A stretch of DNA of 64,000 bases from Pseudoalteromonas undina (lineage in GTDB: Bacteria > Pseudomonadota > Gammaproteobacteria > Enterobacterales > Alteromonadaceae). Positions 19,645 through 56,398 of the stretch are shown in pieces. The notes under the pieces are model-generated. The model ran no database searches. It had not been told where the DNA came from and was given only the letters and a program-made list of their open reading frames with translations. The position numbers and the translations under genes are program-made. Numbering within the stretch: the stretch's first letter is position 1; each line of letters opens with the position of its first letter. The stretch covers positions 372,001 to 436,000 of the forward strand of contig NZ_AHCF03000004.1 in assembly GCF_000238275.3 (NCBI RefSeq). The letters are read 5' to 3'.

Positions 19645-19660
19645 ATTAATTATAATATAA
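19645..19660. promoter_or_regulatory. Weak GntR-type operator motif upstream of tkt
   Basis: This AT-rich stretch matches the locus consensus TTGTATTATMATACAA at 12 of 16 positions, 22 bp before the tkt start. Base composition could give such a match by chance, so it is only suggestive of co-regulation with araBDA. Confidence 0.3.
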
Positions 19661-19682
19661 TATTAACAGGAAATAATTACAG

Positions 19683-21686
19683 ATGACTCTGCCTAGTTCT
19701 CAATCTGCAAATGCAATCCGTATGCTTGCTGTCGATGCTGTTCAAAAAGCTAACTCTGGTCACCCAGGTGCGCCAATGGGAATGGCCGATATTGCCGCTG
19801 TGCTTTGGCAAAAATTTCACCGTCACAATCCATCAAACCCTAGCTGGGTTAACCGCGATCGTTTTGTATTGTCAAATGGCCATGGCTCAATGCTGCAATA
19901 TGCGCTATTGCACCTAAGCGGTTATGACGTCAGTATTGAAGATATTAAACAGTTTCGCCAATTACATTCTAAAACACCTGGTCACCCAGAGTACGGTTAT
20001 ACTCCAGGGGTCGAAACAACAACTGGACCACTAGGTGCCGGTATTGCTAATGCGGTAGGTATGGCGATTGCTGAAAAAACTTTAGCGGCACAATTTAACA
20101 AACCACATTTTGATATCGTTGATCACTTTACTTATTGCTTTTTAGGCGATGGTTGTTTGATGGAAGGTATCTCTCATGAAGCTGGTTCATTAGCGGGTAC
20201 TTTAAAGTTAGGCAAACTGATCGCTTTTTGGGATGACAATGGCATCTCAATTGATGGCGAAGTAGAAGGTTGGTTTACTGACGATACGCCAAAGCGTTTT
20301 GAATCATACGGTTGGCAGGTTATTAGTGGCGTTGATGGTCACGACATGGCTGCGATTGCCAGTGCTATTGAAGCGGCACAAGCGAACCCTGAGCAACCAA
20401 CGCTTATCTGTTGTAAAACAGTGATTGGTTTTGGTTCACCCAATAAATCAGGCAGTCATGATTGTCACGGTTCACCACTGGGTAATGATGAAATTGCAGC
20501 GGTTCGTGAGCAACTAAATTGGCCACATCCAGCGTTTGAAATTCCACAAGATGTATATAATGAGTGGAATACTCAAACTAAAGGCCAAGACTTAGAAAGT
20601 GCCTGGCAACAAACCTTTGCCGCATACAGCAAAGCGCACCCTGAATTAAGTAACGAGTTTAACCGTCGTGTGATGGCTAAATCATTACCGAATAATTTTG
20701 CTGAACTTGCTGATCAATACATTACTAAGTGCCAAGATGAAATGCAAAACATTGCAACGCGTAAATCATCACAAAATGCGATTACCTTTTTTGCCCAGCA
20801 ATTACCTGAATTAATGGGCGGCTCTGCTGACTTAGCTGGCTCAAACTTAACTTTATGGCCTGATGCAAAGGGCTTACAAGAAGACGACGCGGGTAACTAT
20901 GTATTTTATGGGGTGCGTGAGTTTGGCATGAGCGCCATTATGAATGGTATTGCATTACATGGTGGCTTTATCCCATTTGGTGCTACATTCTTAATGTTTA
21001 TGGAATATGCACGTAATGCTGTGCGTATGTCTGCATTAATGAAAGCGCAAAGCATTTTTGTCTACACTCATGATTCTATTGGTCAAGGTGAAGATGGCCC
21101 AACTCATCAGCCGATTGAACAAATTGCCAACCTGCGTATGACACCTAATATGACGACGTGGCGCCCATGTGATGAGGTTGAAACAGCTGTTGCGTGGCGT
21201 CAAGCTCTAATAAAAGAAGCTGGCCCAAGCGCGTTGATCTTTAGTCGCCAAGGCACCAAAGCTATGCCGCGTGATAAAGCGCAGTTAGACAATGTAGCAA
21301 AAGGGGGTTACACCCTCGTTGAGTGTGAGCAAACACCAGAGCTAATTTTAATGGCAACAGGCTCTGAAGTTGAATTAGCGGTTAATGCGGCAGCTGAGCT
21401 AACAGCTCAAGGCAAACAAGTGCGTGTTGTTTCTATGCCATCAACCAATCAGTTTGATTTACAAGATAAAGCATACCGCCAAAGTGTATTACCTGCAGGT
21501 GTGGCTAAAATTGCCGTCGAAGCTGCACACAGTGATTTTTGGTATAAATACGTTGGCCAAGATGGTGATGTATTAGGTATGACTACTTTTGGTGAGTCAG
21601 CACCGGGTGCTGTATTGCTGGAGCATTTTGGTTTTACCGTAGAGAACTTAGTTGCTAAGGCAAATGCGTTATTAAACGACATCTAG
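19683..21686 (+). CDS. tkt: Transketolase
   Basis: A 667-aa TPP enzyme that transfers two-carbon units between pentose- and other sugar phosphates. N-terminal [36 protein letters not shown] with downstream [10 protein letters not shown] (the GDG-N TPP/Mg motif) and [19 protein letters not shown] are diagnostic. It is full length against E. coli TktA (663 aa). It is placed in the arabinose locus, convergent with tal and next to araBDA. It is therefore probably a pathway-dedicated copy that takes the xylulose-5-phosphate made by AraA-AraB-AraD; another copy elsewhere in the genome is expected but not visible. Confidence 0.95.
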
Positions 21687-21704
21687 GTTAAAGTTTTACC
21701 TGAT

Positions 21705-21743
21705 AAAAAGCCCGCTGATTTAATTAAATCAGCGGGCTTTTTT
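21705..21743. terminator. Bidirectional terminator between tkt and tal
   Basis: A perfect 38-bp palindrome (arms 21705-21723 and 21724-21742) with a GC-rich core AGCCCGCTGA and flanking A and T runs. It can terminate tkt on the plus strand and tal on the minus strand. Confidence 0.93.
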
Positions 21744-21804
21744 ATATCTTTAATTCGAGCTCTCGATAATGATTGATCATCAAGAGCCCAATTTAGTTAA
21801 TGAT

Positions 21805-22758
21805 TTAGACTAGCTCAGCTAAGATTGCTTCTAGTTTTTCTTGGTCAATTGCAAACTGACGAATGCCTTGGCTTAGTTTATTTGTTGCCATTGCATCTTG
21901 GTTCATTTCCCAGCGGAACGCTTGTTCGGTCATAGGCTCTGGGGCAGCAACTGTTTCAGTGGTAGGAGCAAGTTGACGCGCTAAAGGTGCATCTGTTGCT
22001 GCCAGTTCTGATAATAGCCCTGGGCTGATGGTTAATCTATCACAGCCTGCTAGCAACTGAATTTCGTTGATGTTTCTGAAACTTGCGCCCATAACGATGG
22101 TTTTATAATCATGCTTTTTGAAAAAGTCATAAATATGAGTCACTGATTGCACGCCTGGATCGTTAGCACCGCTAAAATCAGTATCAGTATTAGTAGCTTT
22201 ATACCAATCCAAAATACGCCCTACAAATGGCGAAATTAAATAAGCACCTACCTCAGCACAGACACGGGCTTGGGCAAACGCGAATACCAGCGTTAAGTTA
22301 CAACGAATACCTTGTTGCTCAAGTACTTTTGCCGCTTGAATACCTTCCCATGTTGACGCTATTTTGATCAACACCCGTGATGTATCAATATCTTGCTCTT
22401 TATAAAGTGCAACGAGCTCAAGCGCTTTATTAATCGTTGCTTGAGTATCAAATGATAAGCGCGCATCGACTTCAGTAGATACTAAACCTGGGACTTGCGC
22501 CATTAGGTTTGCACCAATCAATACTGATAACTTATCGGCGGCTTTACTGATCACTTGTGCATTGTCATTGGTTTGTTGCTTAGCCCAAGCAACGGCTTCA
22601 ACAGCCAGTGGACGGTATTTTTCAATTTTAATCGCATTGAGTAATAACGATGGATTTGTTGTGGCATCTTGCGGCTTATATTGGTCGATCGCTTCAAAAT
22701 CACCGGTATCAGCAACCACAGTGGTCATGGTTTTTAATTGTTCTAATTGGCTAGACAT
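21805..22758 (-). CDS. tal: Transaldolase
   Basis: A 317-aa class I transaldolase (E. coli TalB is also 317). [21 protein letters not shown] is the usual start and the Schiff-base lysine lies in [30 protein letters not shown] and [12 protein letters not shown] are conserved. The ATG at 22758 is preferred over one six bases upstream because AGGA sits six bases before it. It converts sedoheptulose-7-phosphate and glyceraldehyde-3-phosphate, completing pentose-phosphate processing of arabinose carbon with the convergent tkt. It is divergent from araB across a 237-bp regulatory region holding three copies of the putative operator. Confidence 0.95.
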
Positions 22759-22765
22759 AGGCATC

Positions 22766-22897: not shown

Positions 22898-22946
22898 TAT
22901 TTTTATAATACCTTTACAACCCGTCATTATTGATATTATCATACAA
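22898..22946 (+). promoter_or_regulatory. araB promoter with two operator copies
   Basis: A -35-like TTTACA (22913-22918) and -10-like TATCAT (22937-22942) are 18 bp apart. The operator-like TGATATTATCATACAA (22931-22946, 14 of 16 to consensus) covers the -10. A second, weaker copy, TATTTTTATAATACCT (22898-22913), abuts the -35. This arrangement fits repression of araBDA by the locus GntR regulator. Confidence 0.55.
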
Positions 22947-22995: not shown

Positions 22996-24648
22996 ATGTC
23001 TCGTTATACATTGGGCTTAGATTATGGCTCTGATTCAGTAAGAGCACTGCTTGTTGATGTAATTACAGGTAAAGAGCTGGCTAGCCATTTAGTGAATTAT
23101 CCGCGTTGGGCGCAAGGTTTATATTGCGACCCAAGTAAAGACCAATTTCGTCAGCATCCACAAGACTACATCGACAGCTTGATTGAGGTCGTCAATGGAC
23201 TATGGCAACAAGTACCTGCGGGAACTGCGGATAAAGTAATAGGTATGAGTTTTGATACCACGGGATCAACCCCGGTGGCTATTAATAACCAAGGTACGCC
23301 TTTAGCGCTGACAGAAGAATTTGCTGAAAACCCTAATGCGATGTTCATTCTTTGGAAAGACCATACGTCGATTAAAGAGGCGAATGAGATCACCAAAGCC
23401 GCGACCAATAACGAGGTTAATTATCTTTCACATATGGGCGGTATCTATTCATCAGAATGGTACTGGGCAAAAGCACTACATATTTTTAGAGATGATGCGG
23501 CTGTAAAAGCGGCAACTTACTCGTGGGTAGAGCATTGTGACTGGATGACTGCATTAATGTGTGGCACCACTCACCCAGAAGTATTAACGCTGGGACGTTG
23601 TGCTACGGGCCATAAACAAATGTGGAATGAGCAATGGGGTGGTTTCCCACCAAATAGTTTCTTCAGCAATATTGACCCATTATTAGATGGTGTGGTTGAT
23701 ACGCTTAATGCCACAACTCAACCGAGTGACCAAGTCGCTGGTAAATTAACAGCGCAATGGGCTGATAAACTTGGTTTATCACAGAATGTAGTTGTAGGTT
23801 ACGGTGCTTTTGACTGTCATATGGGGGCAGTGGCTGCCAATGTGCGTCCAGGTGTTTTAACTAAAGTAATGGGCACTTCAACCTGTGACATTACTGTTAC
23901 TTCAAAACAGCAACTAGGCGATACGTGCGTTAAAGGTATTTGTGGTCAGGTTGATGGTTCAGTTATTCCAGACATGATTGGCCTTGAAGCGGGGCAATCT
24001 GCGTTTGGCGATTTATATGCATGGTTTAAAAATCTGATGCTATGGCCGACTCGCCAATTAACAAATTTAAACGACGTTGAACAAAACTTGATAAATAAAA
24101 TTGAAGACTCAATTTTAGTTGATTTATCAAAAGCTGCCAGTGCATTACCGGTTAAAAATACCGATGTAACAGCACTTGACTGGGTCAACGGCCGTCGCAC
24201 ACCTGATGCAGACCAAAGCGTAGCAATGGCCATAACGGGCATGAAAATGGGCACTGATGCGCCGCAGTTCTTTAAAGCATTAGTTGAGGCGACGGCTTTT
24301 GGTGCTCGTGCTATTACTGAACGTTTTCAAAATGAAGGCGTGCCAATTGAATCAGTGGTGGTAATTGGCGGTATTTCGAAAAAATCAGATTACGTAATGC
24401 AAACCTGTGCGGATGTATGGAACTGCCAAATTGACGTACTTGAAAGTGAGCAAAGTTGTGCGCTTGGCGCTGCCATTATGGCCGCAGTGGCTGCCGGTGA
24501 ATATGCAACGGTTGCTGATGCACAGCAAGTGATGGCGTCTGCTGTGTGTCATCAATACCTACCAAATCCAGAGCGTGTTGCTGTTTATGATGAGCTATAC
24601 GCTAATTATCAAGCGCTGGCACAGTATGTTGATGGAGCAAAATCATGA
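22996..24648 (+). CDS. araB: L-ribulokinase
   Basis: A 550-aa FGGY-family kinase that phosphorylates L-ribulose to L-ribulose-5-phosphate with ATP. It starts YTLGLDYGSDSVRALLVDV (phosphate-1 motif). MGTSTCDITV, YGAFDCHMGAVAANV and VVVIGGISKKSDYVMQTCAD are typical of ribulokinase. It is full length. AAAGG lies five bases before the ATG. It is the first gene of araB-araD-araA; its stop overlaps the araD start (ATGA). Confidence 0.95.
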   Translation: MSRYTLGLDYGSDSVRALLVDVITGKELASHLVNYPRWAQGLYCDPSKDQFRQHPQDYIDSLIEVVNGLWQQVPAGTADKVIGMSFDTTGSTPVAINNQGTPLALTEEFAENPNAMFILWKDHTSIKEANEITKAATNNEVNYLSHMGGIYSSEWYWAKALHIFRDDAAVKAATYSWVEHCDWMTALMCGTTHPEVLTLGRCATGHKQMWNEQWGGFPPNSFFSNIDPLLDGVVDTLNATTQPSDQVAGKLTAQWADKLGLSQNVVVGYGAFDCHMGAVAANVRPGVLTKVMGTSTCDITVTSKQQLGDTCVKGICGQVDGSVIPDMIGLEAGQSAFGDLYAWFKNLMLWPTRQLTNLNDVEQNLINKIEDSILVDLSKAASALPVKNTDVTALDWVNGRRTPDADQSVAMAITGMKMGTDAPQFFKALVEATAFGARAITERFQNEGVPIESVVVIGGISKKSDYVMQTCADVWNCQIDVLESEQSCALGAAIMAAVAAGEYATVADAQQVMASAVCHQYLPNPERVAVYDELYANYQALAQYVDGAKS

Positions 24649-25346
24649 GCTACACAGAGTTAAAGCGTGAAGTATTTGAAGCCAATATGGAATTACAACG
24701 TCGTGGTTTAGTAATTTATACCTTTGGTAATGTGTCGCAAATTGACCGCGACAAAGGTGTCATTGCGATTAAACCAAGCGGTGTGTCGTATGACCAAATG
24801 AAAGCGGAAGACATGGTGATTGTTGATTTAGAAAACAACATTGTTGAGGGCAGTATGCGGCCATCTTCAGACACCAAAACCCATATCCATCTGTATCGTC
24901 ATTTTAATGAGATTGGTGGCGTTACCCATACTCATTCAACCTACGCAACAGCATGGGCACAAGCAAAACAAAGCATTCCGTGCTTTGGTACGACACATGC
25001 TGATTATGTGCACGGTGATATTACCTGTACGCGTGAGCTTACTGATACGCAAGTAAATGGTGATTATGAGCTTGAGACTGGTATTCAAATTACCGATGCT
25101 TATAAAGACCGTGACCCAAAAGCAGCACCTATGGTGATTGTGGCAGGGCACGCACCGTTTACGTGGGGTAAAGATGCAGCGCAATCTGTTTATCACGCGG
25201 CGCTGCTAGAAGAAATTGCTCGCATGGCTTACCTAACTCGCACGCTTGATCAACATGCAGGTGCACTTAAAAAGTCTGTGATGGATAAACATTATTTAAG
25301 AAAACACGGTAAAGATGCCTACTACGGCCAAAGTAACCGTGGCTAA
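24645..25346 (+). CDS. araD: L-ribulose-5-phosphate 4-epimerase
   Basis: A 233-aa class II aldolase-family epimerase that makes D-xylulose-5-phosphate from L-ribulose-5-phosphate. Substrate loops [11 protein letters not shown] and [11 protein letters not shown] are followed by the zinc-binding [14 protein letters not shown] (two His) and [13 protein letters not shown] (third His). The E. coli protein is 231 aa. Its start overlaps the araB stop by four bases, indicating translational coupling, and araA follows 22 bp after its stop. Confidence 0.95.
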
Positions 25347-25368
25347 CCAGTACAAGAGGAATTTATAT

Positions 25369-26868
25369 ATGCCGTCGTCAATCAAAGAAGTTTGGTTTGT
25401 AACTGGGTCACAACATTTATATGGCCCAAAAGTGTTAAACACCGTTGCAGATAATAGCGCTGCAATTGTTGCAGGTTTAAATAGCGAAGCTAATTTACCG
25501 GTTAACTTAGTGTGTAAGCCAACGGTGAAAACGCCTGAAGAAATTCATGCGGTGTGCCAAGCAGCAAACACCGATCCTAATTGTGTAGGTCTAGTATTAT
25601 GGATGCATACGTTCTCACCCGCGAAAATGTGGATTGCTGGATTAAACGAGTTACGTAAACCATGGTTACACCTTCATACGCAATTCAATGCCGCGCTACC
25701 GTGGGCTGATATTGATATGAACTATATGAATACCCATCAAAGTGCCCACGGTGACCGTGAATTTGGTTTCATTGGTACTGTAATGCGCAAAGAGCGCAAA
25801 GTGGTTGCTGGCCACTGGCAACGTGCTGACGTACAAAAGCAAATTGATGATTGGTGTCGCGCAGCTAAAGGGTGGGCTGAGAGCCAAACACTTAAAGTGG
25901 CACGTTTTGGCGATAATATGCGTCAAGTTGCGGTTACTGAAGGTAACAAAGTTTCAGCACAAATCACCTTTGGTTATGAAGTACATGCCTTTGGCGTAGC
26001 GGAGCTCGTTAAAGTTGTTGATACCGTAACGGATGCCGAAGTAGATGCGCAGCTTGAAGTATACAAAACTGACTATGTGATTAGCGATGAAACGCTGCAA
26101 GATGATTACAAAGTATCGATGCTACGCAATGAAGCACGTTTAGAGCTTGGTATGGAGCGCTTTTTAGAAAAAGGTGGCTTTAAAGCATTCACTAACTGTT
26201 TTGAAGATTTATCAGGTTTATCAGGTTTACCAGGACTTGCAACGCAGCGCTTAATGGCGAAAGGCTTTGGCTATGGCGGCGAGGGCGACTGGAAAACAGC
26301 TGCCATGGTACGCATCATGAAAGTAATGGGTGAAGGCCGTGAAGGCGGTTGTTCATTCATGGAAGACTACACCTATAACATGGGCGATACTGACCAAGTA
26401 TTAGGTGCTCACATGTTAGAAGTGTGTCCATCAATTGCTGCGCAAAAACCACGCCTTGAAGTTCACACTCATACCATTGGGGTGAAATGTGATGTGGGTC
26501 GTTTATTGTTTACTGCTAAAGCAGGTGAGGCAATTAACGTTTCGCCAATTGATATGGGTAATCGTTTTCGTATATTAATTAACGAAGTAGACACGGTAAC
26601 CCCACCGGCTGAATTACCGCATTTACCGGTTGCATCAGCATTGTGGGAGCCAAAACCTAACCTATCAGTAGCGTCTGCTGCGTGGATCCATGCAGGTGGT
26701 GCACACCATACTGCGTACAGCCAAGCTGTTACCACCGATATGATCGTTGATTTTGCTGAAATGGCAGGTGTTGAAACCATGATTATTGATGCTGATACCA
26801 GTATCCGTGGTTTCAAAACAGAACTACGCCACAATGCAGCGTATTACATGTTAAAACGTGGGCTTTAA
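25369..26868 (+). CDS. araA: L-arabinose isomerase
   Basis: A 499-aa enzyme converting L-arabinose to L-ribulose (E. coli AraA is 500 aa). [17 protein letters not shown] is the standard start. [36 protein letters not shown] and the metal-site EVCPSIA and HTHTIGVK follow. The start at 25369 is chosen because AAGAGGA lies about eight bases upstream; the frame is open further upstream into the end of araD. It is the last gene of araBDA and is followed by a strong terminator at 26904. Confidence 0.96.
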
Positions 26869-27619: not shown

Positions 27620-28831
27620 ATGTCATTGCAATGTGTAACTCAGCGCCTAACAGCGGTTCATCAGTCGTCAACATCGATTAAAAAATTATCTCGCGGTATC
27701 TTTGCAGTGGCAGTGTCTTTATCAATAGCCTTAACCCCCGCGTGTGCTCACCAAGGAGACAATATGACCAATTCACCTTCTGCATTACTGCGTGCTTACG
27801 GCAAGCTGGCAGATCAAACTCCGATCAACCAAGTAACTTTAACCAATAGTAATGGCGTGAGCGTTGATGTGATCAATTATGGTGGCATCATAACGCGCAT
27901 CGAAACGCCAGACAGCAATGGCAACATGGGTAACATTGTTTTAGGTATGGATAATCTGGAAGATTATACGAATTCAACCACTTACTTTGGTGCAATCATT
28001 GGTCGATTTGGTAATCGTATTGCCAATGGTAAATTTAGCCTTAACGGTACCGACTATCAATTAGCCACTAATGATGGCGATAATCACTTGCACGGTGGCG
28101 TGCAAGGTTTTGATAAAAAAGTCTGGACTATGGCGCCATTTAGTACAGAAAACAGTGCGGGTGTAACACTTAAGCTTATAAGTCCTGATGGCGATCAAGG
28201 TTATCCAGGTACCTTGACCACGCAAGTAACTTATACGCTGACCAATAAAAATACCCTAAATATGCAATTTGTGGCAAAAACAGATAAGCCAACCATCATC
28301 AATATGACCCAGCACAGCTATTTTAACTTGGCGGGTAAGGGCGATATTCTCGATCATCAAATGCAAATCAACTCAAATGCAATTACCCCTGTGGATAGCG
28401 GTTTGATCCCAACAGGTGAGTTGATGCAAGTGGCTAGCACGCCGTTTGATTTCAGAAATTCAAAAGCGATTGGCAAAGACATTAATATTGATGATGAGCA
28501 GCTAAAGCTTGGTAAAGGTTATGACCATAACTTTGTACTTAAAAACAAACCTAATCATGATTTGATTGAAGCCGCTAATGTGTATGAACCAAGCTCAGGG
28601 CGTACATTGACTGTATATACCGAAGAGCCAGCGGTACAGTTTTACTCGGGCAACTTTTTAGATGGCAGCAGTAAACAAGCTTCAGGTTTAGTACATAAAT
28701 TAAGAAGTGGTTTTTGTTTAGAGCCACAGCACTTTCCAGACGCGCCTAATCAGCCAAGATTCCCAAGCACGACATTGCTCCCAGGTGAGGTTTACTCAAC
28801 TCGTATCGTGTATGAGTTTGGTACTAAGTAA
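27620..28831 (+). CDS. galM: Secreted aldose 1-epimerase (mutarotase)
   Basis: A 403-aa GalM-family protein that interconverts sugar anomers. An N-terminal ~45-residue extension has a hydrophobic core (GIFAVAVSLSIALTP) ending ACAHQGD, an export signal, so the enzyme should work in the periplasm. The core shows GGIITRIETPDSNGN, GRFGNRIANGKF, GDNHLHGG, MTQHSYFNLAGKGD (catalytic His) and EEPAVQFYSGNF (catalytic Glu region). E. coli GalM is 346 aa and cytoplasmic; the extra length here is the signal region. AAAAGG precedes the ATG. It precedes a lipoprotein GH43 and probably supplies the right arabinose anomer for uptake. Confidence 0.88.
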   Translation: MSLQCVTQRLTAVHQSSTSIKKLSRGIFAVAVSLSIALTPACAHQGDNMTNSPSALLRAYGKLADQTPINQVTLTNSNGVSVDVINYGGIITRIETPDSNGNMGNIVLGMDNLEDYTNSTTYFGAIIGRFGNRIANGKFSLNGTDYQLATNDGDNHLHGGVQGFDKKVWTMAPFSTENSAGVTLKLISPDGDQGYPGTLTTQVTYTLTNKNTLNMQFVAKTDKPTIINMTQHSYFNLAGKGDILDHQMQINSNAITPVDSGLIPTGELMQVASTPFDFRNSKAIGKDINIDDEQLKLGKGYDHNFVLKNKPNHDLIEAANVYEPSSGRTLTVYTEEPAVQFYSGNFLDGSSKQASGLVHKLRSGFCLEPQHFPDAPNQPRFPSTTLLPGEVYSTRIVYEFGTK

Positions 28832-33481: not shown

Positions 33482-33497
33482 TTGTATTATAAATGCC
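33482..33497. promoter_or_regulatory. Putative GntR-type operator upstream of the esterase pair
   Basis: TTGTATTATAAATGCC carries a perfect half-site of the locus consensus. On the minus strand it includes a TATAAT -10-like hexamer, 21 bp upstream of the hydrolase ATG. Confidence 0.5.
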
Positions 33498-37034: not shown

Positions 37035-37405
37035 TTTGTGTGTCCTCTTTATATCGAGATATTGTTGTTATTTAATTATGTGTTCAATGAATGCCAGAGT
37101 CTGAAATGCAAACCAACATACTATTATCATTTTATAGTACTATTTGAGCTGTGCAAGTTTATTACATAAGTAAATTTATTGTTAACTGTGTTGTGTGTCT
37201 AACTTGTTAATTTATAAATTATTTTATTTTTTTAGGTGGGTTGGATAAATATTTAGCTGACTAAAGAAAGCAGTGGTTAACATAAAGTAGATACAAGGGT
37301 TGTTTTATGATTTTATTTTTAAATAGTTAAAGATTTTGATTCTGACAGATTTAAGTGAGGAGCATTTATGGTTTTAAAAATGCTCCTTCGCGAGTTATGT
37401 GCTAG
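37035..37405. promoter_or_regulatory. Intergenic region with GH43-LamG promoter, operator-like site and hairpin
   Basis: This is 371 bp without a gene. TACTATTATCATTTTA (37119-37134) matches the putative GntR operator at 13 of 16 positions, 85-100 bp upstream of the large GH43 gene. A hairpin with 10-bp arms AGGAGCATTT / AAATGCTCCT (37358-37387) lies just past the end of the GH43 gene at 37406 and may terminate it, though the following T-run is poor. The rest is AT-rich with no coding potential seen. Confidence 0.5.
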
Positions 37406-41702: not shown

Positions 41703-42034
41703 TATTTAAAAAAGACTAAAAAGCCTCAGTATCACTGAGGTTTTTTTATTTTATTATGCAAGTCCATAATTTATTTCCCTTTTATAAAATTAATACATAA
41801 TTATTTTTAGATAAACACATGCTTATAGTCGAAAATAGTTGCATGATAATTAGTATGATAATACTATTTATCTTGTTAGCATTAAGTTTACAAAAATAAC
41901 GAATTCAATGAACATCACAATGCTTTGCAATCGAAATTAGATTCGATACTTGTATAACATATTAATAATGATGGTCTTTTTTCTTTTTTAAATATGTTGC
42001 TTTATATAACATATTTTAAAAATTAGGTAGTTGT
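41703..42034. promoter_or_regulatory. Terminator of TonB receptor, then operator/promoter of the GPH transporter operon
   Basis: This is 332 bp without a gene. A terminator (stem CCTCAGT/ACTGAGG, 41724-41740, then seven T) ends the receptor gene. The near-perfect palindrome TAGTATGATAATACTA (41851-41866) is one of the best copies of the locus motif. It overlaps a TTGCAT (41839-41844) to TACTAT (41862-41867) promoter with a 17-bp spacer, the same geometry as the receptor promoter. A ~165-bp AT-rich leader follows to the transporter ATG. Confidence 0.65.
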
Positions 42035-43372: not shown

Positions 43373-43386
43373 TTTTAGGAGCATTT

Positions 43387-44331
43387 ATGTCAACTTTACC
43401 TAAGCCTTTGATCCCACAACGTGCTGACCCATATATTCATAAGCACACAGATGGTTATTATTATTTTACCGCGTCTGTTCCTGCCTATGATGGCATTGAA
43501 CTACGTCGTGCAAAGACGCTTGAAGGACTTGCAACGGCAACACCAAAAATGGTCTGGATGAAGCCACAAACAGGTCCGTACTCGGAGCTTATTTGGGCAC
43601 CTGAGATCCATTTTAATGATGGCGCTTGGTATGTTTATTTTGCCGCAGCACCGAGTCGTGAAATTAAGCACGATTTATTTCAACACCGTATGTATGCAAT
43701 TAGCTGTAAAGATGCGGATCCGATTGAAGGCGAGTGGCAGTTTTGCGGTCAAATTGAAACCCCATGGGATACTTTTTGTTTAGATGCCACGACTTTTTAT
43801 CATAATGATGAGCTTTATTATTGTTGGGCACAAAAAGAACCGGGTGTAAAAGGTAACTCAAATCTGTACTTGGCAAAAATGTCATCACCAATAGAGATCT
43901 CTGGCGAAATCACGCGTTTAACCATCCCTGAACTTGATTGGGAAATAATTGGTTTTTGGGTGAATGAAGGCCCTAACGTACTTAAACGTAACGGTAAAAT
44001 ATTCTTAACGTATTCAGCCAGTGCCACCGATGAAAACTATGCTATGGGCTTGCTATATGCGGACCTAGATAGTGATTTATTAGATATAAATAGCTGGACT
44101 AAAGTACAAGAGCCGGTATTTCGTAGTAATGAGCCTAAGTCGATGTTTGGCCCCGGGCATAACAGTTTTACGCAAGATGAAAATGGTAATGACGTACTGG
44201 TTTATCACTGTCGTCAATATACTGAAATTGAAGGTGACCCACTGTGGAACCCAGATCGTCATACCTTCACAAAATCATTAAATTGGGATGATAACGGTAT
44301 GCCTGTTTTTGGTAAACCTGGCGAACAATAA
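43387..44331 (+). CDS. Cytoplasmic GH43 alpha-L-arabinofuranosidase (subfamily 26-like)
   Basis: A 314-aa GH43 protein without a signal peptide. The base Asp lies in PQRADPYIHKHTDG, the second Asp in CLDATTFYHND, the acid Glu in VNEGPNVLKRNG and the His in GPGHNSF. TYSASATDENYAMGLLYAD is shared almost exactly with the exported paralogue at 48461. It should release arabinose from short imported oligomers. TAGGAG precedes the ATG. It is the second gene of the GPH operon; a long frame of the next gene overlaps its 3' end, but the real downstream start lies after its stop. Confidence 0.86.
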   Translation: MSTLPKPLIPQRADPYIHKHTDGYYYFTASVPAYDGIELRRAKTLEGLATATPKMVWMKPQTGPYSELIWAPEIHFNDGAWYVYFAAAPSREIKHDLFQHRMYAISCKDADPIEGEWQFCGQIETPWDTFCLDATTFYHNDELYYCWAQKEPGVKGNSNLYLAKMSSPIEISGEITRLTIPELDWEIIGFWVNEGPNVLKRNGKIFLTYSASATDENYAMGLLYADLDSDLLDINSWTKVQEPVFRSNEPKSMFGPGHNSFTQDENGNDVLVYHCRQYTEIEGDPLWNPDRHTFTKSLNWDDNGMPVFGKPGEQ

Positions 44332-44353
44332 AAATAACAAAAGGACTCTGTGT

Positions 44354-46804
44354 ATGTTTGATTTAGCAGCAAAAAAATTACCACACGTTATTAGTTTTTC
44401 ACTTGCGGTAATGTTGTTATCGGCTTGCAGCGAACACCCAAATACAGATGATAAAACTGTTAATACGCATCATACACAGAGCACACCACAACAACTTTTT
44501 GCACTTGAGCAAGTTAGCTTAAGTGCAAGCCCGTTTTTACATGCCCAGCAAACTAACGTTCGTTATTTATTGGCATTGCACCCAGATCAATTATTAGCCC
44601 CTTACTTACGTGAAGCTGGTATCGAGCCCAAAGCGTCATCTTATGGTAATTGGGAAGACTCGGGACTTGATGGTCACATTGGCGGTCACTATTTATCGGC
44701 GTTAAGCCTTGCGTGGGCTGCAACTGGCGATGAAGAACTAAAGCGCCGTTTAGATTACATGTTAAATGAGCTACAACGCGCCCAACAGGTTAATGACGGT
44801 TATTTAGGAGGCATACCAAATGGTCAAGCAATGTGGCAACAAATTCATGATGGTAATATTAAAGCCGATTTATTTAGTTTAAATGATCGTTGGGTGCCAC
44901 TTTATAACATAGACAAAATTTTTCATGGTCTGCGTGATGCTTATTTGATTGCAGGCAGTGAGCAAGCAAAAACAATGCTGTTTGGTTTAGGCGAATGGTT
45001 TTTAAACTTAACCTCTAAGTTAAGCGATGAACAAATTCAACAGATGCTATATTCAGAATACGGTGGTTTAAATGCGGTATTTGCTGATATGGCTACTATC
45101 GGTAATGATAAACGTTACTTAAAACTAGCACGTCAATTTACTCACCATAGCATTGTCGATCCGCTGTTAAAAAAACAAGATAAGCTAACTGGCTTACATG
45201 CTAATACCCAAATTCCAAAAATTATTGGTATGTTGAAGGTCGCTGAGACCAGTGATGATGAAGCGTGGCAACAAGGCGCAGATTATTTTTGGCAAACAGT
45301 GACTAAAGAGCGCTCAGTGGCTATTGGTGGTAACAGTGTACGTGAGCATTTTCACGACAAAAAAGACTTTACCGCGATGGTTGAAGATGTTGAAGGCCCG
45401 GAAACCTGTAACACGTACAACATGATGAAACTCAGCAAGCTGCTGTTTCTGAAAACCGCGGACACTCGCTATTTAGAATACTACGAGCGCGCAACCTATA
45501 ACCATATTTTATCGTCGCAACATCCTGAGCACGGTGGGCTTGTGTACTTTACGCCGATGCGTCCTGGGCACTATCGTATGTATTCATCGGTACAAGATTC
45601 AATGTGGTGTTGTGTCGGTTCGGGTATCGAAAATCATAGTAAATATGGTGAGCTGATCTACAGTAAAAATGACGATAACTTATGGGTAAATCTATTTATT
45701 TCAAGTACGCTTGATTGGCAGCAACAAGGCTTAAAAGTAACTCAACAAAGCCATTTTCCTGATGCTAATAATGTTACATTGGTTTTCAATACATTAGATA
45801 AAAAGGATAATTCACCAGCGCAGTTGCATATTCGTAAGCCAAGTTGGATCACGGGTGATTTACAGTTTAAGCTTAATGGCAAACCTATAAATGCCACTGC
45901 AGAGCAGGGGTATTACGCAATAAAACATGATTGGCATGATGGCGACAAATTAACTTTTACTTTAGCGCCAAAGCTGTACACAGAGCAACTGCCGGATGGC
46001 CAAGATTACTATGCGGTATTGTATGGTCCTGTGGTAATGGCAACCAAAGTACAAGCGTTTAAAAACGAGCAGTTGAATTTTGTGGCAGACAATAGCCGCA
46101 TGGGTCATATTGCAGCAGGGCCTACCTGTCCATCCGAAGCACTTCCTATCATGCTCAGTGAACCTGAGCAGTTTATTGCTGATTTAAAGCGAGCGCCTAG
46201 CGCTGAACTTGCATTTACCACAGATAAAAATGTCGCCATAGCCCAGCAGGGTATAGGGAGTACACAAACAACTCAGTTAATTCCGTTCTTTAGGCTTCAT
46301 GATAGTCGCTATCAAGTTTACTGGCCGCAGCAAAGTGAAGCCGAATTTACTCAGTTCGTGAAAGATTCAAAAGCTGCTGAACAAGCAAAAGAGCAATTAC
46401 GATTATTGACCGTTGACCAAATAACACCGGGCGAGCAACAGCCTGAAGTTGAGCATGACTTTAAAGGTGAAAATACCCGTACAGGTGTTAATAACGGCCA
46501 TCATTGGCGTGATGCAACAGGTTGGTTTGAATATAAGCTAACTAACTCAGAGCAGCAGGCAGTTTCACTGCGTATCTGTTATTTTAATGCAGATATAGGC
46601 CGTAAGTTTACTATCACTATTAATGGTGAGGTGCTGGCAAAAGTCAGCTTACCCGCTAAGCAAACTGATGCAGAATTTTACAGCATTGATTATCCATTAA
46701 CTGATGAAATGAAAAAAGCTAGCTCATTAACACTGCGCTTTAGTGCAATAAAAGGATCGGTTGCTGGTGGTATTTACGGTATTCGTTTAATCAATAATAA
46801 CTAG
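44354..46804 (+). CDS. GH127/GH146-type beta-L-arabinofuranosidase lipoprotein (DUF1680)
   Basis: An 816-aa lipoprotein (signal ends VMLLSAC) with an (alpha/alpha)6 catalytic domain. Catalytic/zinc residues match Bifidobacterium HypBA1: VEGPETCNTYNMMKL gives a Glu (~350) and Cys (~352), and SMWCCVGSGIENHSKYGE gives the paired Cys (~419-420). The WEDSGLDGHIGGHYLSALS motif is also diagnostic. GH127/GH146 enzymes remove beta-linked L-arabinofuranose, a minor decoration of plant arabinans. The start is set at ATG 44354 because AAGGA precedes it and the signal peptide then begins properly. It is the third gene of the GPH operon. Confidence 0.88.
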   Translation: MFDLAAKKLPHVISFSLAVMLLSACSEHPNTDDKTVNTHHTQSTPQQLFALEQVSLSASPFLHAQQTNVRYLLALHPDQLLAPYLREAGIEPKASSYGNWEDSGLDGHIGGHYLSALSLAWAATGDEELKRRLDYMLNELQRAQQVNDGYLGGIPNGQAMWQQIHDGNIKADLFSLNDRWVPLYNIDKIFHGLRDAYLIAGSEQAKTMLFGLGEWFLNLTSKLSDEQIQQMLYSEYGGLNAVFADMATIGNDKRYLKLARQFTHHSIVDPLLKKQDKLTGLHANTQIPKIIGMLKVAETSDDEAWQQGADYFWQTVTKERSVAIGGNSVREHFHDKKDFTAMVEDVEGPETCNTYNMMKLSKLLFLKTADTRYLEYYERATYNHILSSQHPEHGGLVYFTPMRPGHYRMYSSVQDSMWCCVGSGIENHSKYGELIYSKNDDNLWVNLFISSTLDWQQQGLKVTQQSHFPDANNVTLVFNTLDKKDNSPAQLHIRKPSWITGDLQFKLNGKPINATAEQGYYAIKHDWHDGDKLTFTLAPKLYTEQLPDGQDYYAVLYGPVVMATKVQAFKNEQLNFVADNSRMGHIAAGPTCPSEALPIMLSEPEQFIADLKRAPSAELAFTTDKNVAIAQQGIGSTQTTQLIPFFRLHDSRYQVYWPQQSEAEFTQFVKDSKAAEQAKEQLRLLTVDQITPGEQQPEVEHDFKGENTRTGVNNGHHWRDATGWFEYKLTNSEQQAVSLRICYFNADIGRKFTITINGEVLAKVSLPAKQTDAEFYSIDYPLTDEMKKASSLTLRFSAIKGSVAGGIYGIRLINNN

Positions 46805-46814
46805 TAGGACGAGT

Positions 46815-47249
46815 ATGAGTTTACAGCATTATGACGATGTGCATTTTAAAGTGAGTGTTCGGCGTTACCCGCTCGCAGAGCAATACATAACACAGCCCGA
46901 AGTGCATGTAACTGGCTCGGGATTAATGTATCGTATTATTGAACTTGGCAGTGGCGAACCACCTTCATGGGATGCCACTGTTAAGGTGCAGCAACGCGTG
47001 ATGACTGCAACAGGGCATGTGCTTTATGATACGCGGCAAATTGAGCAAGTGGCTGAGTATGAAATAGCAGAAGCGATAGAAGGTTTGCAAGAAGCACTCA
47101 TGCTGATGCCTAAAGGCAGCCGTTATGAGTTATTAATTTTACCGCATCTTGCCTACGATATTTACAGTGTGGCACTTAACGAGTCGTTAGCGATAAGCAG
47201 TGAGCAGCTTATTTTTATGGATATTAAACTCATTGATTTTAAAGAGTAA
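46815..47249 (+). CDS. FKBP-type peptidyl-prolyl isomerase-like protein
   Basis: A 144-aa protein with no signal peptide. Its pattern follows the FKBP fold: GSGLMYRIIELGSGEPPSWD, VLYDTRQ, AIEGLQEALMLMPKGSRYEL, LPHLAYDI and LIFMDIKLIDF. Compared with FKBPs, the central 'VhYtG.l.dG..FDsS' region is diverged (VKVQQRVMTATGHVLYDT), so isomerase activity is uncertain. It is 10 bp downstream of the GH127-type gene with AGGA before its ATG, the last gene of the GPH operon. A folding aid for the secreted enzymes is unlikely if it stays in the cytoplasm; its job here is unknown. Confidence 0.65.
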   Translation: MSLQHYDDVHFKVSVRRYPLAEQYITQPEVHVTGSGLMYRIIELGSGEPPSWDATVKVQQRVMTATGHVLYDTRQIEQVAEYEIAEAIEGLQEALMLMPKGSRYELLILPHLAYDIYSVALNESLAISSEQLIFMDIKLIDFKE

Positions 47250-48395: not shown

Positions 48396-48411
48396 AGCTA
48401 CTATAATATAA
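48396..48411. promoter_or_regulatory. Weak GntR-type operator motif between two divergent GH43 genes
   Basis: AGCTACTATAATATAA matches the locus consensus at 11 of 16. A separate right half ATACAA follows at 48415. It is placed where it could serve both divergent genes, but the score is low. Confidence 0.3.
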
Positions 48412-48460
48412 GTAATACAATATTAACAATGGAAATTAAACTATAAAAATAGGAAATACC

Positions 48461-52897: not shown

Positions 52898-52925
52898 TAT
52901 AAACGTGGGAACAACTAATTAAGTT

Positions 52926-54554
52926 TTACCAAAAGCGATAGTAAATAAACGCAGTGATACCGATGATCCCCGCAGTATGAATGTAATCCCATTTATCTAA
53001 TCCGGCAGCTACTTCTTTTAATGTGGCTTTATCAAGACTTGAGAAGGTTAAACCTTTGAGTTGTTCATTACTGGCAGGTTTTGTGAAAATACTCACTACA
53101 ATCATCAGCACAACAACCACAACAAATAATAAAATACAGTAGTACAACCAGTTCATATCGGTGATCCACGCAAATGATGAACCAGCTAAATTATCTTTAA
53201 ATGGCAGTAACACTAAGCGGATCATACCCAGTACAAAACCAGACACTAAACCAGCAAAGCCAGCTGCGGGGGTGATACGTTTACTACATAAACCTAATAA
53301 AAATACAGCAGCAATACCTGGGGCAATGAGTGATTGCACACTTTGTAAGTATTCGTACAGCACATCTGCAATTAAACTCATAATAGGTATCCATAACAAA
53401 CCTAAAATTACAATGGCTACGGTTGCTAAACGGCCTACTTTTAACAAGTGTTTTTCACTTGATTCAGGTTTGAACTTTTTATAAAAATCGATAGTAAATA
53501 ATGTCGCCGACGAATTGAATAATGATGCTAACGAGCTCATTAATGCGGCAACTAGGCCACCAATTACGATGCCTTTAACACCAGAGGGGAGTAACTCGGC
53601 AACCAATGTAGGAAATGCTTGATCGGCACTGTCATAGCTAATAATACCTTTTGCTTTTAATGCATAAGCGATCATTCCTGGTACTAAAAAGATGAAAATA
53701 GGCAATAACTTTAAGTAACCTGCAAACATAGTACCGCGACGCGCTTCTTTAATGCCTTTCGCTGAGAGTACACGTTGTACAATATATTGGTCAGTACACC
53801 AATACCAAAAACCAATAATGAATGAACCAAAAATGATGCCAGGCCATGGGAACTCGGTATCTGAGGCGCTACGGATTAAATGCATATTTACATCATTTAA
53901 GCGTTCAACCTCTGACCAGCCACCGACTTTATCCAAACCAACAACTAAGATAACCACAGAGCCAATGATCAACACAGGGGTTTGTAGCACCGAGGTCCAC
54001 ATTATCGCTTTCATACCACCGAGTACGGTATAGATACCGGTGATCACCACTAAGCCAATAGCGGATATCCAGAAAAAGTCGATGCCCCAAATGCTTTCGA
54101 TACCTAAAATAGTTTTAAACGCGATACCACCGGCATAAACAGTCACTGCTACTTTGGTGAGTACATAACTGATTAATGAGATAACCGACAAAAAAGTACG
54201 TGATTTAGAATTAAAACGACGCTCTAAAAATTCCGGCATAGTATAAACTTTACTACTCCAGTAAAAAGGCACAAACACCCAACCAAGTAATAATATTATC
54301 CACGATTGCATTTCCCAATGCGCTAACGCCATGCCTGATTGTGCACCTGCACCAGATAAACCAACTAAATGCTCAGAGCCAATGTTTGAGGCAAAGATTG
54401 ACGCACCAATGACTAGCCAACTCGCATTACGCCCGGCTAAAAAATAATCTGTAGTATCTTCTTCTTTTTGTCTCATTGAGACGATGACTACAGCTAAGAG
54501 CAAGACAAAGAATCCTGCGAGCACGAGCCAGTCTAATGTACTTAATTCGATCAT
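52926..54554 (-). CDS. SSS-family sodium:sugar symporter (SglT-like), predicted L-arabinose importer
   Basis: About 542 aa with ~14 membrane spans. It starts LSTLDWLVLAGFFVLLLAVV. DYFLAGRNASWLVIGASIFA, NIGSEHLVGLSGAGAQSG and the SSS signature area SSLASLFNSSATLFTIDFYK (Na+ and sugar sites) match bacterial SglT-type transporters. The ATG at 54554 has GGAA seven bases upstream; an in-frame ATG four codons earlier is possible. It is divergent from the GntR regulator, with a motif copy 54 bp upstream of its start. It is probably the main uptake route for free arabinose. Confidence 0.88.
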   Translation of the reverse strand: MIELSTLDWLVLAGFFVLLLAVVIVSMRQKEEDTTDYFLAGRNASWLVIGASIFASNIGSEHLVGLSGAGAQSGMALAHWEMQSWIILLLGWVFVPFYWSSKVYTMPEFLERRFNSKSRTFLSVISLISYVLTKVAVTVYAGGIAFKTILGIESIWGIDFFWISAIGLVVITGIYTVLGGMKAIMWTSVLQTPVLIIGSVVILVVGLDKVGGWSEVERLNDVNMHLIRSASDTEFPWPGIIFGSFIIGFWYWCTDQYIVQRVLSAKGIKEARRGTMFAGYLKLLPIFIFLVPGMIAYALKAKGIISYDSADQAFPTLVAELLPSGVKGIVIGGLVAALMSSLASLFNSSATLFTIDFYKKFKPESSEKHLLKVGRLATVAIVILGLLWIPIMSLIADVLYEYLQSVQSLIAPGIAAVFLLGLCSKRITPAAGFAGLVSGFVLGMIRLVLLPFKDNLAGSSFAWITDMNWLYYCILLFVVVVVLMIVVSIFTKPASNEQLKGLTFSSLDKATLKEVAAGLDKWDYIHTAGIIGITAFIYYRFW

Positions 54555-54607
54555 TTTTGATTCCATTTAAGCCCGAAAGTAACTTTCGTTTAATTTGTGT
54601 GTGATAA

Positions 54608-54623: not shown

Positions 54624-54736
54624 ATTTGTTAAATGAAAGAAATTTGTTAAATATTGATGGTCGTTTTAACTTCTGTGTTTTTATAATTCAGAATTAAAGC
54701 AAAGATAAAATAATATGCAGGAAAATTGTAAAATAT

Positions 54737-54776
54737 TTGCCTGATGACGTGGTAAATTTATAGTAGTATCATACAA
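54737..54776 (+). promoter_or_regulatory. Promoter and operator of the GntR regulator (autoregulation)
   Basis: TTGCCT (54737-54742) and TATAGT (54759-54764) with a 16-bp spacer form a likely promoter. TAGTAGTATCATACAA (54761-54776, 14 of 16 to consensus) overlaps the -10 and start area, 25-40 bp before the ATG. This is the arrangement expected for an autorepressor. Confidence 0.6.
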
Positions 54777-54800
54777 TAAGTATTTTTAAAGGAACTGTTT

Positions 54801-55532
54801 ATGGCACGCATTGAAAATTTAAATTTGTCGCAACAGGTAACCAATGAGCTGGGTAAAGCCATTATTAATGGTCATTATACAGCTGAGACGGGTTTACCAA
54901 CCGAAGCAAAGTTATGTGAAGAGTATGGCATTAGTCGTACTGCTGTTCGTGAAGCAGTTAAAATGCTTGCAGCAAAAGGTCTTATATCGTCACGTCCTCG
55001 TCAAGGAATACGTGTAGAGCCTGCTAATACTTGGAATTTATACGATACCAGCGTTTTAAAATGGCTTCTTGAGAGTAGTCCAACTCTTTATGTGTTAAAA
55101 GAGTTTTTACAGGTACGCTTGGCGATAGAACCACAAGCTGCGGCGTTAGCAGCAAAACGAGCAGATAAAGATGCTATTGCAGAGATTGCTGTTGCGCTAG
55201 AAAAAATGCAAGCAGCTGCTGATGCACCTGATGGTGAAATTCATGAGGCAGATTTAGCGTTTCATACCGCTATTTTATTTGCTAGCGGAAACCGTTTTTT
55301 CTTTCAATTACGTGATTTCATCCGTACGGCATTAAATGTAAGTATTCAACACACAACACCCGCAAAAGGAAGCAAGAAGGCCATTGCTGATGAACACTTT
55401 AAAGTGTATCAAGCCATATTAAATGGTGAGGCTGAGCGGGCTAAAAACATGATGACCTACATGATTGATGAAGCAATGTCATTTATTGAAAAAGAAATTG
55501 CAGAAAAAGAGTCACAAAACGCATCAAAATAA
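54801..55532 (+). CDS. GntR/FadR-family (FCD) transcriptional regulator, predicted arabinose regulator
   Basis: A 243-aa regulator. The N-terminal winged helix shows ETGLPTEAKLCEEYGISRTA, then VREAVKMLAAKGLISSRPRQ, G and RV. The C-terminal all-helical FCD ligand domain has the metal-binding pattern D..FH (EADLAFHTAILFASGN), H in DEHFKVYQAI and RA.N.M at the end. It sits between the symporter and the oxidative-branch genes. The recurring 16-bp motif overlaps its own promoter, which makes it the best candidate to bind all copies in the locus. Whether it senses arabinose or a downstream intermediate is unknown. Confidence 0.88.
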   Translation: MARIENLNLSQQVTNELGKAIINGHYTAETGLPTEAKLCEEYGISRTAVREAVKMLAAKGLISSRPRQGIRVEPANTWNLYDTSVLKWLLESSPTLYVLKEFLQVRLAIEPQAAALAAKRADKDAIAEIAVALEKMQAAADAPDGEIHEADLAFHTAILFASGNRFFFQLRDFIRTALNVSIQHTTPAKGSKKAIADEHFKVYQAILNGEAERAKNMMTYMIDEAMSFIEKEIAEKESQNASK

Positions 55533-55572
55533 TCACATTTATTAATGAATTATCTTAATACTTAAGGAAATC

Positions 55573-56352
55573 ATGCCAGTCTCAACAACACACACAACAA
55601 GTTATCCAAGCCTCGCTGGTAAAAGTGTTTTTATTACCGGCGGTGCAACAGGGATCGGCGAAGTCATGGTAAAACGTTTTTGTGAACAAGGTGCAAAAGT
55701 AACCTTTGTTGATATAGCAAAAGAGCAAGGAAGGCAACTATGTGACTCAGTTGCCGGTCAATATTGTTATGACCCTAAGTTCATATATTGTGATATTCGA
55801 GACATAGAACAGCTAAAAACTGCCATCAAAACGACGGGCAAAACACAAGGGGAGATCAGTGTATTGATAAACAATGCTGCTGACGATACCCGCCACGTTG
55901 CCGATAGTATGAGTGTTGAATACTGGGATGATAAGTTAGCCGTTAACTTACGGCCTTGTTTTTTTTCGGCGCAGGCCGTAGCTCCGCAAATGCAACGAAT
56001 TGGTGGTGGTAGCATTATTAATATGGGCTCAGTGAGCTGGCGTATTAAGCAAACGGGCATGCCGGCTTATACGACCGCTAAAGCAGGAATTGAAGGGTTA
56101 ACTCGCTCATTAGCTGCGACTTATGGTAAAGATAATATTCGTATTAATACGTTAGTGCCAGGGTGGGTTATGACTGAACGGCAAATAACCCATTGGTTAA
56201 CTCCCGAAATGATCGAAGATGTAAGACATAATCAATGTATAAATGAAACATTGCAGGCCGATGATATTGTTAATGCGGCTCTTTTCTTAGCCGCAGATGA
56301 TAGTAAAATGATGACCGCACAATCATTAGTTGTTGATGCCGGTTGGACTTAA
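55573..56352 (+). CDS. SDR-family sugar 1-dehydrogenase (predicted L-arabinose/pentose dehydrogenase)
   Basis: A 259-aa NAD(P)-dependent short-chain dehydrogenase. VFITGGATGIGEVMVKRF binds the cofactor, VLINNAADDTRHVADSM follows, and the catalytic triad lies in IINMGSVSW (Ser) and PAYTTAKAGIEGLTRSLAA (Tyr, Lys). LVPGWVMTERQ and the terminal SLVVDAGWT closely follow Caulobacter xylose dehydrogenase (XylB). It should oxidise a pentose to its lactone. It lies 40 bp after the regulator, with AAGGAA before the ATG, and upstream of a TauE/SafE permease and an SMP-30 lactonase. Confidence 0.82.
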   Translation: MPVSTTHTTSYPSLAGKSVFITGGATGIGEVMVKRFCEQGAKVTFVDIAKEQGRQLCDSVAGQYCYDPKFIYCDIRDIEQLKTAIKTTGKTQGEISVLINNAADDTRHVADSMSVEYWDDKLAVNLRPCFFSAQAVAPQMQRIGGGSIINMGSVSWRIKQTGMPAYTTAKAGIEGLTRSLAATYGKDNIRINTLVPGWVMTERQITHWLTPEMIEDVRHNQCINETLQADDIVNAALFLAADDSKMMTAQSLVVDAGWT

Positions 56353-56382
56353 AGTTAAAGAAAAAAATTTACCTAACCTCAA

Positions 56383-56398
56383 TCATATTATAATATTA
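56383..56398. promoter_or_regulatory. Weak GntR-type operator motif upstream of the TauE/SafE gene
   Basis: TCATATTATAATATTA matches the consensus at about 12 of 16 and sits 53 bp before the permease start. It could mark an internal regulated promoter, but AT-rich chance matches are possible. Confidence 0.3.

Follow-up and report, generated by a model that had tools for sequence, protein, structure and literature searches.

Regulators of arabinose genes

The AraR protein of Bacillus subtilis, a chimera of a GntR-type DNA-binding domain and a LacI-like effector domain, regulates genes for the use of arabinose and arabinan. The locus described here, from Pseudoalteromonas undina (assembly GCF_000238275.3, contig NZ_AHCF03000004.1), likewise combines arabinose and arabinan genes with a GntR-type DNA-binding domain, but the protein in question, encoded at 54801, carries an FCD domain and no LacI-like one, and the Bacillus-type AraR structure 4egy matches its DNA-binding part only (E 6.5e-4). 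All coordinates are those of the window, by which we mean the whole stretch of 64,000 nucleotides analysed (contig positions 372,001 to 436,000, forward strand). As argued below, this FCD/GntR protein is very probably the local repressor of the arabinan and arabinose genes around it, acting through 11-bp operators of the FadR type.

A second described system is the AraR-II regulon predicted in Shewanella by Rodionov et al. 2010 (PMC2996990), where a GntR-type regulator belongs to an ara locus with araY and araL; the name AraR also appears in PMC10191376 and PMC3223726. With AraR-II, as set out in that prediction (PMC2996990), the window locus shares the GntR-type regulator, araBAD, a mutarotase, a GPH transporter, a TonB receptor, a xylose-dehydrogenase-like gene (araY), an arabinolactonase, and sites in front of most operons. 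Three loci assigned to the Shewanella type by gene content (G350, G340 and G397) carry the same site class, for example TAGTATTGTAGTACAA. Their regulators form a separate clade, 33-36% identical to the window protein overall and 48% in the DNA-binding domain; the clade placement is unsure because the branches are long. Judged on these proteins (33-36%) rather than on the named Shewanella ones, the window regulator is not an ortholog of Shewanella AraR-II. A genome of the same genus as these three, G359, carries the window-type regulator (69%). Unlike the window locus, which has neither, the G350 locus includes a periplasmic-binding-protein/ABC transporter and a PF00920 dehydratase gene next to its short-chain dehydrogenase (SDR) gene, and the window locus differs from the Shewanella type in having sites before tkt and tal. 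The window regulon is thus another example of a type of sugar regulon already described, and its regulator belongs to a lineage distinct from the Shewanella-type proteins; the sequences suggest that arabinose genes may be under the control of two different FCD-GntR lineages that use almost the same operator. A literature search on arabinose regulators of the GntR/AraR kind in Pseudoalteromonas and Alteromonadales, and on L-arabonate as inducer, did not find the regulon among the titles listed.

The third relevant system is DgoR of Escherichia coli. The core of its IR1 operator, TTGTAGTACAA (PMC12288454), recurs exactly at the centre of the araB site in the Shewanella-type loci G340 and G397. 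DgoR also shares metal- and carboxylate-binding residues and operators that overlap the promoter; it differs in controlling galactonate genes. It is, in addition, the best solved relative of the 54801 product (7c7e, E 1.3e-29), and R106, D151, H155 and H199 of the latter align with R102, D146, H150 and H195 of DgoR. The Asp/His/His metal site typical of FCD domains (D151, H155, H199) is therefore present, and these residues are kept in the orthologs compared. The 54801 product has the N-terminal GntR winged helix (Pfam, 67.5 bits) and C-terminal FCD domain (85.5 bits) that define the FadR subfamily, both above cut-offs, and it is the only protein with a DNA-binding domain among the 33 open reading frames scanned with Pfam (11214-63672). 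None of the 25 NCBIfam models listed for it, a set that contained no DgoR model, reached its cut-off.

Conserved sites across the locus

The sequence-only reading had proposed that a 16-bp palindrome, in ten good and three weak copies, is repeated across the arabinan locus; all 13 positions were inspected. Alignments of the promoters with those of six Pseudoalteromonas relatives, among them P. haloplanktis ATCC 14393 (G020), P. lipolytica (G022), P. prydzensis (G048) and P. rhizosphaerae (G050), show that the sites are conserved blocks inside promoters that otherwise drift. Over eight promoters (the abhydrolase, large GH43 and GH43b promoters being left out of the count), 111 of 120 site bases (92.5%) are identical in G022, compared with 880 of 1520 (58%) outside the sites; for G003 the counts are 111/120 and 887/1520. 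The repeated sites therefore stand as real, conserved elements of one regulon, and this extends to the copies called weak (tkt, GH43d/e and TauE), which keep 28 of 32 bases in G022 against 83 of 88 in the others. Two of these, placed originally at 19645 and 48396, are better positioned at 19650-19660 and 48410-48420. Conversely, three of the ten supposedly good copies (22898, 33482 and 37119) have more than three mismatches to the literal 16-mer TTGTATTATMATACAA, and 37119 is the least regular block of the locus.

With up to three mismatches allowed, TTGTATTATMATACAA has 14 strand-counted matches in the window, where 4.5 +/- 2.9 are expected, a count equalled in 1 of 100 shuffles; the matches fall at 8 places, of which 5119 alone is outside the locus. 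In its literal form the 16-mer is therefore a weak statistic, only marginally in excess of chance. The locus makes up 0.9% of the 4.03-Mb genome, and 4 of the 7 exact genome matches of the 13-base core TWTTATMATACAA lie within it, all intergenic, while the other 3 lie inside open reading frames. For TTRTMATACAAW, 5 of 8 exact matches are in the locus; the remaining three comprise one within an open reading frame, one where a nucleoside-transporter gene begins and one some 40 bp upstream of an aminotransferase IV gene.

De novo motif searches were also made in the 19 intergenic gaps of the locus. An unconstrained model returned A/T runs and terminator-like strings. A palindromic model of width 16 returned TaaTAtTATAaTAttA, with a score of 26.0 compared with 18.4 +/- 2.9 (maximum 23.1) in 15 shuffles, which weakly supports the motif; palindromic widths of 12, 14, 18 and 20 returned other strings. 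Expectation-maximization refinement seeded with the original consensus drifted to a low-information AT sequence and was dropped.

The operator unit

The frame of the operator was examined with 92 distinct sites from 13 genomes (12 from the window, 34 from three Pseudoalteromonas relatives and 46 from other genera), symmetrised around every possible centre and bootstrapped. The best symmetry centre is position 10, which lies 2.5 bp from the centre of the proposed 16-bp palindrome and scores 10.95 rather than 8.37 bits (arms of 8). Bootstrap preference for position 10 over the originally proposed centre is 0.992-0.998 for all 92 sites and 0.998-1.000 for those of other genera. The 16-bp palindrome was accordingly mis-framed, and the predicted symmetric unit is one of 11 bp, TTRT-NNN-AYAA. 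The consensus, TTRTMATAYAA, pairs a strong half (TACAA/TTGTA) with a variant one (TTAT).

Operators of the FadR subfamily have the form TNGTNNNACNA (PMC2230225), and TTRT-NNN-AYAA, the best fit by symmetry, is of this form; the operator thus fits an FCD-GntR protein. Most of the 92 sites carry TTAT as one half, a mismatch to the G of TNGTNNNACNA, and the full TTGT-NNN-ACAA is found in 6, all in other genera.

Several of the window sites recur outside the genus. The operator A 16-mer is found unchanged upstream of araB in G159 and G279, sites like that between GH43d and GH43e are present in two Bowmanella genomes, Lacimicrobium, Paraglaciecola, G159 and G369, and 7 of 8 TauE promoters of other genera have a site at p <= 0.05. 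The symporter operator TTATAATACAA is an exact genome-wide match in an intergenic position.

Association of the regulator with the motif

An ortholog of the regulator (83-100% identity) is found in 18 of 108 genomes of the genus, and araA is found in the same 18; another 21 hold more distant homologs only. Among 295 genomes of the order, all 6 with an ortholog of at least 69% identity also carry araA, and of the 59 genomes with araA, 53 are without such an ortholog.

A position weight matrix was applied to other loci. The matrix was trained on the window only, one gene list served for all groups, 300 permuted matrices were the control, and the score is the mean best score per merged promoter region. 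In nine genomes of other genera with the window-type regulator (G369, G279, G159, G205, G359, two Bowmanella, Lacimicrobium and a Paraglaciecola metagenome-assembled genome; 68 regions), the score was 9.42, compared with 4.59 +/- 0.58 for permuted matrices, none of which did as well (0/300). In the three loci where an FCD-GntR gene of 33-36% identity lies beside araA (G350, G340 and G397; 17 regions), it was 8.55, compared with 5.09 +/- 0.73 (0/300). In six arabinose loci with no such gene beside araA (G254, G189, G300, G172, G316 and G293, some of which hold one elsewhere; 13 regions), it was 5.29, compared with 5.68 +/- 0.74, and 218 of 300 permuted matrices did as well. A gene-by-gene test, in which divergent genes sharing a promoter count twice, gave p <= 0.05 in 58 of 87 upstream regions of loci with the window-type regulator and in 12 of 31 from the nine other loci; most of these 12 fall in the three Shewanella-type loci.

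The regulator gene is apart from araA in G205 (by 75 kb) and G279 (on a different contig), and both clusters still carry sites. In Catenovulum adriaticum, araA and a 55% homolog are separated by about 8 kb; araB (p 0.0015) and the homolog itself (p 0.004) both have upstream sites. In Pseudoalteromonas sp. THAF3, a 58% homolog has dipeptidase, MFS, D-amino-acid and 5-oxoproline genes as neighbours. The sole site of at least 15 bits in 16.7 kb precedes the MFS gene that adjoins the homolog (0 of 2000 shuffles; 13 gaps examined). The motif is therefore separable from arabinose genes, and in THAF3 the operator class may have been recruited to an unrelated pathway. The THAF3 stretch is on a plasmid (L180 8031-12570), with the 16.6-bit site before the MFS gene and genes for a D-amino-acid aminotransferase and 5-oxoprolinase nearby. 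The 58% homolog is 77% identical in the DNA-binding domain (measured on G055, which has equal overall identity), and there is no site upstream of its own gene (score 3.3). Together, co-occurrence with araA, the transfer to other genera, the THAF3 case and the type of operator support the proposal that the 54801 product is the likely regulator of these sites, a role that the sequence-only reading had assigned to it from autoregulatory placement.

In G259 and G241 (L080 and L081), FCD regulators of 47-49% identity have two good sites each upstream of their own genes; a match to araA was found in neither genome. A clade of 53% homologs carries the variant site ATCATATATCATATTA. On a P. nigrifaciens plasmid (L182 8082-14618), a 53% homolog lies beside genes for an SDR, 2-dehydro-3-deoxygalactonokinase, alpha-galactosidase and an SLC5 transporter, with the variant sites AGCATATATCATATTA (not significant) and AGTATATATCATACAA (p 0.04); this may be a regulon for galactose oxidation under a sister regulator.

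Promoter architecture and mode of action

The intergenic promoters of the locus hold about a dozen operators. At the TonB receptor, the operator fills the 17-bp spacer between TTGACT (from 38695) and TACTAT (to 38723). The layout TTGAC(T/C)-operator-TANNAT is present at this receptor in seven genomes and at the second receptor of G048 and G050, and with TTGACA it is found in G159 and at two of the three receptor copies of G359. (The receptor is in two or three tandem copies in the loci of G359 [L108, L109], G048 and G050.) The GPH promoter is laid out similarly, with the operator, as part of TAGTATGATAATACTA, within a promoter-like TTGCAT-17-TACTAT (41839-41867). Elsewhere the distance from operator to start codon is mostly 12-60 bp, and the tal/araB region has three operators.

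A protein bound in the promoter spacer or near a start codon should block RNA polymerase, and because the operators overlap promoters, repression is the likely outcome. Thus, the 54801 product would act as a local repressor (AraR) of the genes from tkt (19683) to SMP-30 (58073), presumably binding as a dimer to the 11-bp operators and keeping RNA polymerase from the promoters until arabinan breakdown products, once in the cell, release it. The arrangement suggests repression by occlusion together with autoregulation. The sites, their conservation, the operator frame and the link to this protein lineage come directly from the computations, while the preference for repression over activation, the dimer and the effector are what we infer from them.

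Several results weigh against this assignment. Genome-wide there is no enrichment: the softened consensus TWGTATKATMATACWA, with up to three mismatches, occurs at 242 places (one strand) compared with 292 in the reversed control. The same holds for the TWTTATMATACAA core with one mismatch allowed (59 versus 79) and for the exact 12-mer TTRTMATACAAW (8 versus 10). Because total counts do not exceed those of reversed controls, the letters alone are insufficient to define a site; chance is separated from the sites by placement and conservation only, the patterns having been derived from these same sites, and two pattern matches outside the locus sit at the starts of unrelated genes. The 12 window sites by themselves do not separate the two candidate centres (bootstrap 0.48-0.57). 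The promoters of distant homologs' own genes are not generally enriched in sites (3 of 22 at 42-58% identity, 2 of 14 at 34-38%). Finally, the motif has TATAAT-like letters, and some of the conservation could be that of a promoter -10 element.

This last point could be taken further, with the blocks taken not for operators but mainly for the -10 elements (TATAAT) of AT-rich promoters. TATAAT is indeed contained in TTATAATACAA, the region is AT-rich, and since a promoter scan of 38300-56500 shows no excess (49 matches, 55.8 in shuffles), promoters are not recognisable here by their letters. We nonetheless consider this explanation highly improbable. In the TonB-receptor and GPH promoters the block sits within the spacer, ahead of the -10 hexamer; versions with TATCAT are conserved as well as those with TATAAT; the TACAA half is conserved too; the tal/araB region has three copies, one only 12 bp from a start codon; and in the six arabinose loci that lack the regulator the scores resemble those of permuted matrices. 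A different possibility is that the sites are bound by a regulator encoded elsewhere and the FCD-GntR protein acts on no more than its own small operon. Binding does not follow from position alone, and the promoters of more distant homologs carry variant sites or none. However, this would leave unexplained why the regulator ortholog and araA are in the same 18 of 108 genomes, why the motif is beside the THAF3 homolog among unrelated genes, why both clusters carry it where the ara genes and regulator are apart (G205 and G279), and why the operator type matches the protein subfamily, and we regard it as very unlikely.

If the 54801 product is accepted as the regulator, it might still be an activator or act both ways. 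Members of the FadR subfamily can activate, as GntR1/2 of Corynebacterium do at ptsG (PMC2230225), and for some of the window sites the distance to the start codon is 88-179 bp. In both readable promoters, however, the operator is between -35 and -10, a position for repression, and an operator lies close upstream of the regulator gene itself; activation is therefore an unlikely mode, and the repressor model is the one we retain.

The effector

Behind the regulator gene come the D-xylose-dehydrogenase-like SDR gene, a TauE-type gene preceded by an operator of its own, and a gene of the SMP-30 family. DgoR responds to D-galactonate, and FCD proteins with such a metal site take carboxylates (PMC7674646). 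Because genes for a sugar dehydrogenase, lactonase and exporter come after the regulator, the effector we favour is the aldonic acid L-arabonate, which this dehydrogenase and lactonase would produce; this is a working hypothesis. In its most extended form, which we consider rather doubtful, the regulator would not sense arabinose at all. The dehydrogenase, lactonase and TauE exporter would form a dedicated signalling side branch in which a small amount of L-arabinose is oxidised to L-arabonate, which releases the repressor and is then exported, and sister FCD regulators would read other aldonates, such as galactonate, through the same operator class. Export is invoked because the genome appears to be without an arabonate dehydratase, in a search that covered PF00920 and PF13378 only. 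Its two PF00920 genes are IlvD and Edd (above NCBIfam cut-offs), and the one PF13378 (MR_MLE) gene above the Pfam cut-off is nearest to the NCBIfam galactonate dehydratase, at 260 bits against a cut-off of 311. The PF00920 gene beside the SDR gene of G350 is near L-arabinonate dehydratase (821 of 882 bits).

The competing view, which has a substantial chance of being right but falls short of probable, is that the effector is L-arabinose or L-ribulose and that the dehydrogenase and lactonase form a side path of ordinary catabolism or detoxification. Both AraR of Bacillus and AraC of E. coli respond to arabinose, and the sub-cut-off MR_MLE gene leaves a possible route onward from the sugar acid. 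On the other side stand the carboxylate ligands of FCD metal-site proteins, including D-galactonate for the nearest solved relative (PMC7674646), and the 53% homolog that adjoins an SDR gene and 2-dehydro-3-deoxygalactonokinase.

Gene content of the locus

The arabinan/arabinose locus (19683-58073) contains tkt, tal, araB-araD-araA, a HAD gene, the mutarotase gene, GH127, two alpha/beta hydrolases, five GH43 genes and one large GH43, a TonB receptor, GPH and SSF transporters, and the FCD-GntR, SDR, TauE and SMP-30 genes. An open reading frame of 1084 amino acids at 49548-52802 combines DUF4861 (BT3233-like) with GH88 and a part that is weakly BNR-like. Upstream of it no operator was seen, and the compared stretches of G020, G022, G003, G057 and G050 gave no match; that of G048 matches the first 671 residues. 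Because an operator was not seen and five of the six relatives gave no match, this gene is likely a later insertion into the locus.

Table 1. Genes and predicted operators of the arabinan/arabinose locus (window coordinates)
Feature	Sequence	Position	Strand	Evidence or conservation
Operator upstream of tkt	TTATAATATAA	19650..19660	+	conserved block 5/5; one base altered in G022, G003, G057
Transketolase (tkt)		19683..21686	+	Pfam
Transaldolase (tal)		21805..22764	-	Pfam TAL_FSA
Operator C, centre 12 bp upstream of tal start	TTATCATACAA	22771..22781	+	identical 4/5; one base altered in G020
Operator B, tal-araB intergenic	TTATAATACCT	22903..22913	+	identical 5/5
Operator A, tal-araB intergenic	TTATCATACAA	22936..22946	+	identical 5/5 Pseudoalteromonas
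araB, araD, araA (ribulokinase, ribulose-5-P epimerase, arabinose isomerase)		22996..26868	+	Pfam; NCBIfam ribulokinase for araB
Operator upstream of mutarotase gene	TTGTATTATAA	27576..27586	+	identical 5/5; exact genome-wide match, intergenic
Aldose 1-epimerase (galM-like, possible arabinose mutarotase)		27620..28831	+	Pfam
Two hydrolase genes		32604-33461 and 31018-32607		
Operator upstream of the two hydrolase genes		33482..33492	+	identical 3/3 genomes aligned there
Large GH43 (GH43big)		33609-37034		
Irregular operator-like block upstream of large GH43		37119..37139	+	conserved block, different shape, 7 genomes
GH43b		37406-38359		
Degenerate operator upstream of GH43b		38498..38517	+	weak in window, clearer (AATACAATAATACAA-like) in relatives
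TonB-receptor operator, inside 17-bp promoter spacer		38707..38717	+	arrangement in 7/7 genomes
TonB-dependent receptor		38871..41702	+	Pfam, NCBIfam
Operator upstream of GPH operon		41851..41861	+	AGTATGATAATACTAT in 7/7
GPH transporter, GH43, GH127, FKBP-type genes (probable operon)		42035..47249	+	Pfam
GH43d, divergent from GH43e (48461-49489)		47346-48356		
Operator between divergent GH43d and GH43e		48410..48420	+	GTAATACAATATTAACA in 7/7
Sodium:solute symporter (SSF)		52926..54566	-	Pfam SSF
SSF symporter operator, divergent from regulator	TTATAATACAA	54613..54623	+	identical 4/7; two bases altered in G022, G003, G057
Regulator-gene operator, centre 30 bp from start	GTATCATACAA	54766..54776	+	block in 7/7 aligned genomes, right-arm changes
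GntR-family regulator, FadR/FCD subfamily, proposed AraR, 243 aa		54801..55532	+	Pfam
Short-chain dehydrogenase, D-xylose 1-dehydrogenase-like		55573..56352	+	NCBIfam XylDhXylBProt 307 bits, cut-off 400 not reached
Operator upstream of TauE/SafE		56388..56398	+	block in 7/7, with changes
TauE/SafE family transporter		56451..57158	+	Pfam
SMP-30/gluconolactonase family		57198..58073	+	Pfam

Implications

With this analysis, an entire marine arabinan-degradation system has a named regulator and an operator that can be put to the test, and regulon members become predictable in Pseudoalteromonas, Bowmanella, Lacimicrobium, Paraglaciecola and Catenovulum. If the aldonate idea is true, it would also account for the association of such regulators with sugar-oxidation genes that lack a full catabolic pathway.

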